From: Mesorhizobium sp. Root157
GTDB lineage: Bacteria > Pseudomonadota > Alphaproteobacteria > Rhizobiales > Rhizobiaceae
Assembly: GCF_001427385.1 (NCBI RefSeq)
Contig: NZ_LMGJ01000033.1
Location: forward strand, 124,001 to 188,000
Reading direction: 5' to 3'
Length of the DNA: 64,000 nucleotides
Part shown: positions 48,663-51,724 of the stretch, piece by piece
Layout: each line of letters begins with the position of its first letter
Position numbering within the stretch: the first letter of the stretch is position 1
The notes under the pieces: generated by a model
Seen by the model: only the letters and a program-made list of their open reading frames with translations
Databases searched by the model: none
What the model was told of the DNA's origin: nothing
Program-made: the position numbers and the translations under genes

Positions 48663-48877
48663 TGCAAAGGCTCTCCGAAGTCACGACGCGTGTCATATAC
48701 GAGACTTGCCGCACCCTGCCAATGCAATTGCCTAAGCCAAACGCGGCGGAACCGGATCAACGGAAACGCCCGTAGGCTCTCAAACGCTGCGCTCGCAAAA
48801 AGATCCTCCGACGATACGTTTCCTAAAGGGTTTGATGCCACTGTCGCACCATACTTTGCGTGAGAACAGGAAAACCG

Positions 48878-50227
48878 ATGCAAACGCCGTTTAGCACCGG
48901 GCAAATAAGCAGGGACGGCAGCGACCTGGCTTTTACCGATGCGTTGACCGGGCTCGGCAACCATCGCCGCTTTTTCGACAAGGTGGACCGGTTGATCAGC
49001 GACCGGGCCGACGATCCGGCGCCGTTTGCCATCGGCATACTCGACCTCGACGGCTTCAAACCGATCAACGATCTGTTCGGCCACAGGGCCGGCGACGACA
49101 TCCTTGCCCAGGTCGCCATGCGCCTGCGCGCCTCGATGGACAGCTATTCGACCGTGTGCCGCATCGGTGCCGACGAGTTCGCCTTTCTCTACCCGATGGT
49201 CTTCAGCGAAGAGGCCGCCGCCGAACGCGCGCGCATGTTGATTGAAATTCTGTCCGCCCCTTATGATGTCGGTGAACGCACCGCGCGGCTTTCGGCTTCG
49301 ACCGGCTGTTCGCTGTTCTATTCCGGGGATGAAACCACGGAGATCCTCATCAACAAGGCGGAGACGGCACTTTACCACGCCAAGCGTTCGGGGCGCGGGC
49401 AGGTCGTCGTCTATACGCGCGAGATGGAAGAAGCGGCCAAGCGCGTAACCCGTATCGAGCAGGCCTTGCGGCGTGCGGTTTCAGCAGGCGAAGTGGAGCC
49501 GCATTTCCAACCCATCGTCGATCTCAATACGCGCCGCACGATCGGCTTTGAAACGCTGGCGCGCTGGACCGACCGCGATCTCGGGCCGGTTTCCCCGGTC
49601 GTCTTCATCCCCATCGCCGAGGAGCGCGGCATCATCGGGCCATTGTCGCAACTGGTGCTGCGCAAGGCTACCGAGGCGGCCAGAAACTGGCCGAAGGACC
49701 TGTTTTTGTCGTTCAACCTGTCACCGTCGCAACTGGTGGACCAGAATACCGGCCTGCACATCTTGTCTATCCTGGATCGGACCGGTTTCGACCCGCGCAG
49801 GCTGGAAATCGAGATTACCGAAACCGGCCTGATGAACGATCCGGCATCAGCCGAGAAGATCGTCGAGGACCTGCGTCGCGTCGGCATCCGCGTCGCGCTC
49901 GACGATTTCGGAACTGGCCAGTCGTCACTGGGGCGGCTGCGCGAATTTCACTTCGACAAGCTGAAGATCGATCGTGCCTTTGTCTCCTCGATCCTACAGG
50001 ACCGCCCATCCGAACACATCATCCGAGCCATTCTGGCGATGTGCCAGGGGCTCGGCATGGATGTTGTGGCAGAAGGTATCGAGGAAGAAGCCCAGGCGGA
50101 CCGTCTCGTGGAATTCGGATGCGGCGGCGGGCAAGGTTTCCTGTTCGGGAAGCCGGTCGACGCCGATGCGACGCTGGGCTATCTGCGAGACCAGTTCCGC
50201 GGTGCGCTGCGCGCTGCGGGAATCTAG
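48878..50227 (+). CDS. GGDEF-EAL cyclic-di-GMP protein with GADEF and ETL variants
   Basis: A soluble 449-residue protein with no sensor domain. The ATG at 48878 follows AACAGGA; a GTG at 48860 is in frame but less likely. The GGDEF site reads RIGADEF (residues 95-101), with Ala for the second Gly, so cyclase activity is doubtful. The EAL site reads ETL at 225-227 and keeps the catalytic Glu; the Asn (SFNLSPSQL), ITETGL, DDFGTGQ, Lys (KLKID) and AEGIEEE elements are present, so phosphodiesterase activity is likely. The TAG stop is the first three bases of an inverted-repeat element, so the C terminus may have been altered by that insertion. Confidence 0.92.
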   Translation: MQTPFSTGQISRDGSDLAFTDALTGLGNHRRFFDKVDRLISDRADDPAPFAIGILDLDGFKPINDLFGHRAGDDILAQVAMRLRASMDSYSTVCRIGADEFAFLYPMVFSEEAAAERARMLIEILSAPYDVGERTARLSASTGCSLFYSGDETTEILINKAETALYHAKRSGRGQVVVYTREMEEAAKRVTRIEQALRRAVSAGEVEPHFQPIVDLNTRRTIGFETLARWTDRDLGPVSPVVFIPIAEERGIIGPLSQLVLRKATEAARNWPKDLFLSFNLSPSQLVDQNTGLHILSILDRTGFDPRRLEIEITETGLMNDPASAEKIVEDLRRVGIRVALDDFGTGQSSLGRLREFHFDKLKIDRAFVSSILQDRPSEHIIRAILAMCQGLGMDVVAEGIEEEAQADRLVEFGCGGGQGFLFGKPVDADATLGYLRDQFRGALRAAGI

Positions 50228-50494
50228 GACCAATCGACATTCAGGTTTCGGGCGTGGCGCGAGCCGGATTTTGGTCCTGACAAGGAGAAAACGCAAGGCG
50301 GTGTTGACCACCGGCGAGCATTTTCGACGCATGCAGGGTTGAAACCCGCCGCGTCCCGCAGGGATATGGCCAAAATCGCCCAATTCTGCGTCGCGAAGCC
50401 TTGACGGAGGTCGACTCCGCCTTCGGCTTCGCTCCTTGAACTGGACGATTTTTGCTTATACCACGCCTCAAACCCTGAATGTCGATCGGTCCTA
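50225..50494. mobile_element. Short inverted-repeat element (MITE-like), about 270 bp
   Basis: The left end (50225-50257) and right end (50461-50494) are long terminal inverted repeats. Each starts TAGGACC, then A or G, then ATCGACATTCAGG; they continue TTT..GGCGTGG with one gap and a few mismatches, about 33 bases in all. The outer bases are TA on both sides, fitting a TA target duplication of the IS630/Tc1 type. The inside has no open frame of note, so it would depend on a transposase elsewhere. The left TA is part of the stop codon of the upstream gene. Confidence 0.8.
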
Positions 50495-50653
50495 GGTCAG
50501 TCCTGTTCTCCGACAATCGGATTCCACTTTTCGGTTCGCTGCTCCAGCATTGTCGATCCGGCGTCGAGGCGATGTCGGTTTCCGCGCAAACATGCGTCAT
50601 TGCGGATGCCAAACTGCGCGGCAAAATCGAAGCGCCTTACAGGATGCCTTGCC

Positions 50654-51724
50654 ATGCCAGTCTCCACCCTCTTGCTGGTCCATGAACCGGAGGCTATTTG
50701 CCTGAAGCGCTTGCTGGCCGAGGGGTTTGACAGAGAGCACGCAGCGGAAATCTCGTCCTATCTGGCGCAATCGACCGATCTGGCCGCCGAGTTTGACGCT
50801 CTGTCGCAAGCCTGCGAAGCGCATGGACTTGCCTTTCACCAGGTCGAACTGGATCAAGCTCCAGCCGCCTTGGCCGGTCAGGAACGGCAACGGACTTTGG
50901 TCTGGACGCTGACAGACGGCATCGCTTATTTCCGCGGCGGCGCCGCGCCGGCTTTGGCGCGGCTCAACGGCTTGTCGGTCATGGGGGCCGACGATTCCCT
51001 GTTCGCGCTGTGCCAGGACAAGTTCCGGTCCGGCGCCGTGCTAGGCGCGCTGGGGCTGCCTGTGCCTGCGGCAGGGCTTGCCCGCAACGGCGAATGGCTC
51101 GTAGGTCCGCCGGCCTCGAGCCGGGGCTGGTTCGTCAAGCCGAACCGATTGGGCGCGAAGATCGGCATTTGGCCGGATTCGCATTGTCACGACCTCGGCG
51201 CTGCGCTCGAGCTTAGCCGGCGCATTTTCAGCGCCTATCGTGATGACGCGCTCGTTCAGCCTTACGTGCCCGGCCGTAACGTCAGGGCAAGTTTCCTTGG
51301 TGTGAACCGTCAGGACGGATCGGAGGCACTAGGCATCTCATTTGTCGACTCCGGATCGGATTTCCAGACGATGAGCGACAGTCTTGCCCTTTACGGCGAG
51401 ACGGGTGAAGCCGCCAAGATGCGAGGCACCTATGCCGAACCCGAACTCGCCGCCGTTTTGGACACGTGGCCGGAAGCCGACCGGAAGATACGGGAACTGG
51501 CGGCCAGCATGATCCGCGGCCTCGGCCTGCGGGACGTGTTCTCGCTCGACCTGCGCGTAGTAGACGACAACACCGTGCATCTGATCGAGTTCGAGGTTTG
51601 TCCTGGCCTGCCTTGCTTCGATTTCCGCGCCTATTGCAAGTCGCAATGGGGTCTGGGCCTGCCCGAGGCGATGGCCAAGGCAGCGGCGAATCGCTTGACC
51701 GATGTCGGATCGAAAGCGATCTGA
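50654..51724 (+). CDS. ATP-grasp ligase-like protein, substrate unknown
   Basis: A 356-residue protein with an ATP-grasp layout like D-alanine-D-alanine ligase. After an N-terminal domain (to ~120) come SRGWFVKPNRLGAKIGIWPD (ATP-binding lysine and glycines), ALVQPYVPGRNVRASFLGVN and the metal-binding acidic strand VFSLDLRVVDDNTVHLIEFE with VCPGLPC where ligases have NxxPG. The Asn of the usual metal motif appears as Val-Cys, so activity needs testing. The ATG at 50654 follows AGGATG. It lies 149 bases before a peptide-transporter operon on the same strand, which suggests a peptide or amino acid substrate. The family name is inferred. Confidence 0.7.
   Translation: MPVSTLLLVHEPEAICLKRLLAEGFDREHAAEISSYLAQSTDLAAEFDALSQACEAHGLAFHQVELDQAPAALAGQERQRTLVWTLTDGIAYFRGGAAPALARLNGLSVMGADDSLFALCQDKFRSGAVLGALGLPVPAAGLARNGEWLVGPPASSRGWFVKPNRLGAKIGIWPDSHCHDLGAALELSRRIFSAYRDDALVQPYVPGRNVRASFLGVNRQDGSEALGISFVDSGSDFQTMSDSLALYGETGEAAKMRGTYAEPELAAVLDTWPEADRKIRELAASMIRGLGLRDVFSLDLRVVDDNTVHLIEFEVCPGLPCFDFRAYCKSQWGLGLPEAMAKAAANRLTDVGSKAI

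Follow-up and report, generated by a model that had tools for sequence, protein, structure and literature searches.

The window, a stretch of 64,000 nucleotides from Mesorhizobium sp. Root157, contains on its forward strand a gene for a 455-aa GGDEF-EAL protein (48860-50227; Pfam PF00990 and PF00563), which ends in ...RAAGI and whose TAG stop codon at 50225-50227 is the insertion site of a gene-less element. This element occupies 50227-50492 (266 bp, forward strand, non-coding, GGACC...GGTCC) and is bounded by TA at 50225-50226 and at 50493-50494, the left TA forming the TAG stop together with the element's first G and the right TA being followed by a G. Its 5' end reads GGACCAATCGACATTCAGG, and its 3' end is the near-perfect inverse of this. 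The left terminal inverted repeat (50227-50249, forward strand) matches one end of IS5-family elements in 22 of 23 nt, and the right repeat (50471-50492, reverse strand) matches the same end in 20 to 21 of 22 nt. Inverted-repeat detection returned arms of 25 nt at 50224-50248 and 50471-50495 that are 92% complementary, and pairing extends inward from the terminal repeats across the whole element; the repeats of about 33 bases reported in a first-pass annotation of this DNA describe the imperfect outer stem reasonably well. The RNA fold of 50215-50505 has a predicted energy of -150.9 kcal/mol (z of -9.6, with 0 of 200 shuffles equally good), and the single-stranded DNA fold of 50225-50494 has a z of -7.0. 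ORFs of at least 50 aa run across the element in several frames; none of them reads as a separate gene lying within it, in agreement with the gene-free interior that the same annotation had described, and TA is present at both ends. An inverted-repeat mobile element at this position is confirmed, and it is a MITE: a short element without transposase, having terminal inverted repeats and dispersed copies.

The next gene (50654-51724, forward strand) encodes an ATP-grasp protein, whose match to the D-Ala-D-Ala ligase C-terminal domain has a score equal to the Pfam cut-off and which has close matches in five of six relatives. Compared with relatives, about 3.5 kb is missing at 50228-50653: the GGDEF-EAL and ATP-grasp genes are 3.46-3.60 kb apart in all five relatives holding both neighbours and 426 nt apart here, MITE included. 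In G097, the sole relative read for the intervening genes, these encode a short-chain dehydrogenase, a DGOK kinase, a KDPG/KHG-type aldolase and an SMP-30/SGL protein. A deletion adjacent to the element and produced by it is not supported, because homology to the relatives restarts only at 50550. For 50495-50549, the 55 nt that follow the right TA, no homologue could be detected in either of the two nearest relatives, so the window copy can be compared with an empty site on its left side only, and the evidence for an empty site with both sides comes from other copies.

The GGDEF-EAL protein has the same C-terminal residue in 29 of 29 relatives (the best 29 of 145 searched), none of which has the element at this locus. 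Of these relatives, 27 use TGA as the stop, G097 uses TAA and G099 uses TAG (in the context ATC TAG|GT). Because all of these element-free relatives end at the same residue, a stop at this codon is older than the insertion, and the protein, judged by this comparison, was not trimmed. The first-pass annotation had suggested that the insertion may have trimmed the protein, and had named an identical protein end in relatives lacking the element as the observation that would speak against it; this is what all 29 relatives have. Its further statement that the TAG stop is made by the element holds for the G, which alone is the element's first base; the T and the A are the duplicated target, and a stop was there already. 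As a warning for annotation, a protein is not necessarily truncated where its stop codon straddles the boundary of an element.

The draft genome (38 contigs, 4.19 Mb in total; range within the genus 3.3-8.9 Mb) contains 14 copies of the MITE, 12 of them two-ended and 2 one-ended, and the seven full-length copies share 88-98% pairwise identity. With up to 3 mismatches allowed, the 19-nt end has 15 matches on each strand, vs. 0 for the reversed control, with three of these 30 matches being isolated ones at 3 mismatches. The absence of other copies, which the first-pass annotation had also named as speaking against its reading, is not what was found, as the search for the same ends returned many copies, both these and similar ones in other Rhizobiales. 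Among 41 genomes (the own genome, 24 of the genus and 16 of the order), 5 have element matches. A survey of the genus gave matches in 13 of 146 genomes, which are long only in the own genome (G000), G097 and G099; the remaining ten have pieces of 25-49 bp alone. Weak matches of 42-49 bp in G034, G039 and G004 (L031-L033) look like chance and were rejected, two of the three regions being without inverted repeats and the other, L032, having two 16-nt pairs.

The 19-nt end was matched exactly in at least 106 stretches of a collection of species genomes. The matches listed include Mesorhizobium, Neorhizobium, Rhizobium, Ensifer, Pseudaminobacter and Corticibacterium, as well as Microvirga, Bradyrhizobium, Methylobacterium, Brevundimonas, Sphingomonas and Rhodobacterales. 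Pairing of the ends among these listed matches, with three mispairings discarded, resulted in 57 elements, 41 of them gene-less and 16 longer. Among the same matches, 27 of the gene-less elements measure 266-269 bp, a doubtful Sphingomonas pairing excluded, and copies of this size occur in six genomes besides the own one. Phage records gave no match to the element, and three plasmid records had a match, at 68-76% identity.

The 16 longer elements among the matches listed have terminal sequence in common with the MITE, measure 833-865 bp (one 637 bp) and carry a transposase, which is often split over two frames. The IS5-family model NF033580 is the best NCBIfam match in 16 of 16; 15 of them score 133.7 to 176.0 bits, over the 110-bit cut-off of the model, and L209 scores 91.1 bits. 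These elements are not all independent: L113, L148 and L160 score equally and belong to a single Microvirga genome, and L104 and L127, located at the two ends of one contig, may be one element. In Pfam, PF01609 was found in all 11 C-terminal transposase fragments scanned and PF13340 in one N-terminal fragment; DDE_3 (PF13358), the IS630-type catalytic domain, is absent from the reported matches of these 12 fragments and has 0 matches in the own genome. The element is thus an IS5-family derivative by its ends, and IS5-family transposases are found between the same ends in other genomes; the IS630-type assignment of the first-pass annotation is rejected on these matches. Homology between the MITE and the insertion sequences is limited to the terminal 22-23 nt. 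Both MITE ends match the same single end of the insertion sequences, whose other end differs, reading GGCTGAATCGACATTCA in several, and the MITE interior is not derived from the insertion sequences among the matches listed.

In the own genome, there are four matches to NF033580. Two come from one place, which has premature stops and no MITE end even at up to 5 mismatches; a third, L059, is a decayed IS5-type element that has a matching MITE end and lies close to the terminus of contig C12, and no other sign of a partner element was seen in this genome; the fourth is weak and lies elsewhere. As the IS5-type matches are few and decayed, the family may be stranded in this genome, or an intact partner may have been lost in contig breaks. 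Movement of the MITE, probably by mobilisation in trans, is only inferred because no intact transposase gene with MITE ends was found in the own draft genome.

The flanks were compared in 54 pairs among the matches listed, these being the 57 elements minus the doubtful pairing L070 and two with too short a flank. They comprise 32 pairs with C-TA on the left and TA-G on the right, 12 with another Y-TA and TA-R, and 10 that do not fit on both sides, giving YTAR on both flanks in 44 of 54. In the 12 pairs of the second kind, a 2-bp TA duplication plus a fixed terminal G fits, and a 4-bp duplication needs an extra mutation in each. The duplication of the target site is shown by empty sites at two other copies, each against two relatives. 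At L008, the clearest of these cases, the gene ends in CTAA in the two nearest relatives and the own genome reads CTAG-element-TAA, the insertion having changed the stop from TAA to TAG via the element's G with the protein length unchanged; at L012, the two nearest relatives read TTAG, with recognisable sequence on either side. For the copy L003, compared by eye, three of five clear homologues have the same end residue and two end one residue earlier, a sixth match being discounted as no homologue. For L014, also by eye, three of six relatives have the same end residue and three end two residues later.

The element inserts at YTAR, mostly CTAG, duplicating the central TA. The TAR part of this motif spells a stop codon, either TAG or TAA, so that an in-frame insertion at a gene end rebuilds the stop, TA and the element's G giving TAG, and keeps the protein length. 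At 50225, a copy very probably landed in the pre-existing stop codon of the GGDEF-EAL gene, and it now lies directly behind it. The best explanation, given a probability of about 0.9, is that a MITE with IS5-type ends landed in the GGDEF-EAL stop codon and rebuilt the stop, leaving the protein unchanged. As far as the evidence reaches, the element is a passenger. That the stop is instead a premature one made by an IS630-type insertion, which would have shortened the protein, is extremely unlikely: the TAG does span the element boundary, and a TA duplication is typical also of IS630, but all 16 same-ended longer elements among the matches listed have IS5-family transposases, the own genome lacks DDE_3, and the C-terminal length is equal in the 29 relatives. 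The interpretation made in the first-pass annotation is, as a whole, partly supported.

Of the 14 own copies, 6 have a gene prediction that stops precisely where the element starts or finishes, and the same holds for 19 of 50 elements among the matches listed (own two-ended copies 5/12, other MITEs 8/26, insertion sequences 6/12), seven of the 57 elements having been dropped for less than 600 nt of flank. The gene caller, a home-made score of codon usage, was trained on the own genome and is less reliable for other genomes, and three 'overlap' cases among the 50 may be its errors. In a count free of the gene caller, over 47 elements with at least 700 nt of flank (94 boundaries, among the matches listed), 21 frames of at least 180 codons end at the boundary TAG, vs. 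4 and 10 for the other two frames; the doubtful pairing L070 is included in both counts. As background, 464 kb of the own genome have 155 CTAG sites, of which 28 are predicted stops, 70 lie in gene interiors and 57 are intergenic, and the other loci have 74 (6 stops, 31 interior, 37 intergenic). Sites of the TTAG/CTAA type are stops more rarely than CTAG (25/285 in the own genome, 14/206 in the other loci).

It is likely that this placement needs no special preference for stop codons, CTAG often occurring in stops and insertions in gene interiors being lost by selection. The CTAG background of the own genome agrees with this, as does the weak excess once gene interiors are excluded: 19/47 elements vs. 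34/128 sites (p=0.095) overall, and 6/14 vs. 28/85 (p=0.30) in the own genome. Against it stands the excess over all CTAG sites (19/50 vs. 34/229, p=0.0005; own genome 6/14 vs. 28/155, p=0.028), together with the still rarer stops among the half-matching TTAG/CTAA sites. The excess at stop codons is clear over all CTAG sites and not clear outside gene interiors, and the target motif with loss of gene-interior insertions can explain most of the placement at gene ends. This account is compatible with landing and stop rebuilding at the GGDEF-EAL gene. Such rebuilding is a simple route to harmless settling at gene ends, in which the motif holds a stop codon that the element's first base completes again.

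Between the terminal repeats, the window copy has a first internal palindromic arm (50258-50353; alignment columns 32-132), a small central hairpin (50354-50364; columns 133-143) and a second internal palindromic arm (50365-50460; columns 144-239), all given on the forward strand. The alignment consists of 27 copies from seven genomes (7 own, 2 from G097, 12 from Neorhizobium lilium and 6 from four others), which are the 27 of 40 gene-less copies among the matches listed that measure 266-269 bp, with 13 shorter or longer ones excluded; mean identity is 83% and the minimum is 73%. In the consensus fold, the small hairpin sits between two long arms enclosed by an outer stem, the family-wide outer helix having 29 pairs across about 31 columns. 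Paired cells make up 97.2%; shuffles reach 92.6%, and shifting the partners by 1 to 3 columns leaves 33.4-48.5%. Both sides have changed in 24 of 93 pairs, vs. 12.4 +/- 1.8 in shuffles, in counts that repeat related copies, 12 of the 27 being from one genome. The excess is weaker when only Watson-Crick double changes are counted on the 71 pairs that folding of either strand predicts: these changes occur in 17 pairs, vs. 10.7 on average and at most 16 in shuffles, and the seven own copies alone have them in two pairs. The family thus has a conserved three-armed palindrome with compensatory changes and without a clear RNA-strand preference.

The strong predicted hairpin sits directly behind the GGDEF-EAL stop codon, and the first-pass annotation had raised a possible transcription terminator. 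A canonical intrinsic terminator was not seen and is rejected, as there is no T-run after the element and the terminator-like sites, on the opposite strand to the gene, are at chance level (2 vs. 0.9 +/- 1.2). A structured RNA is likewise rejected, with no Rfam family matching the element up to E=5 and no strand bias on the 71 both-strand pairs. It is improbable, more broadly, that the element is kept as a functional RNA structure at the 3' end of preceding genes, as a terminator or mRNA stabiliser. The conserved fold with its changes on both sides, and the many copies directly adjoining stop codons, would be consistent with such a role. Selection on RNA is expected to tolerate G-U above A-C on one strand, and for all 93 pairs predicted from the forward strand the cells indeed number 128 G-U vs. 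28 A-C; however, the pairs predicted from the reverse strand give the opposite, 36 vs. 169, and those predicted from both give 30 vs. 22, in 18 columns each. The G-U excess mirrors whichever strand was folded. The lack of a terminator signal above chance and of an Rfam match also stands against the RNA role, as do the six own gene-end copies, four of which have one orientation to the gene and two the other.

The complementarity of the arms would be maintained at the DNA level, through a need of folded DNA or through copying between the arms, and the conserved branched palindrome of an element that carries no gene offers a case in which maintenance of structure at this level can be tested. A more specific and rather doubtful proposal combines both aspects of the family: the YTAR target and the terminal G would make stop codons safe sites, and the palindrome would be kept across genera because folded DNA is needed for mobilisation or repair.

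Among known elements, the Rhizobium intergenic mosaic elements (RIME) are palindromic, intergenic and found in Rhizobiales, RIME1 having about 108 bp; they resemble the present MITE by description. The NF033580-type insertion sequences (16 among the matches listed) are like the MITE in one end and in YTAR flanks, and 6 of the 12 with enough flank adjoin predicted gene ends, as MITEs do; they differ in having a transposase, an unrelated interior and another end. MITEs targeting CTAG or YTAA are already known: MITEPsy1 of Pseudomonas syringae is a gene-less element, labelled 'IS5?', which has CTAG or YTAA as target and is reported to move in vivo (PMC3189936). MITEPsy1 has 100 nt, 18-nt ends and a reported 4-nt duplication, and is derived from ISPsy2 per its authors (PMC3189936). 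It is like the present MITE in being gene-less, IS5-linked and placed at a CTAG-type target; the present element has other ends, is larger (266-267 bp), duplicates TA and contains a long palindrome with branches. Sites of IS5 in E. coli are given as CTAA or CTAG with a reported 4-bp target duplication, in contrast to the 2 bp seen here (PMC11677980). MiniMdi3 of Methylobacterium extorquens is also an alphaproteobacterial MITE without the transposase of the related insertion sequence, ISMdi3; it differs in size, with about 400 bp (PMC2680597). The present family is set apart from MITEPsy1 and IS5 by its ends, size, 2-bp duplication and branched interior. Titles and abstract openings, whose partial coverage makes them weak evidence, held no published description of this element or of stop-codon rebuilding.

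The length of the element varies in some genomes. In two Mesorhizobium assemblies, L106 and L125 have identical 12-nt flanks and occupy the same insertion site, one copy having 267 bp and the other 177 bp, with a shorter interior and the ends retained. Longer versions of 336 and 381 bp (L087, L103, L153 and L154) occur in Pseudaminobacter arsenicus and Neorhizobium lilium, and the 336-bp version was found in both species.
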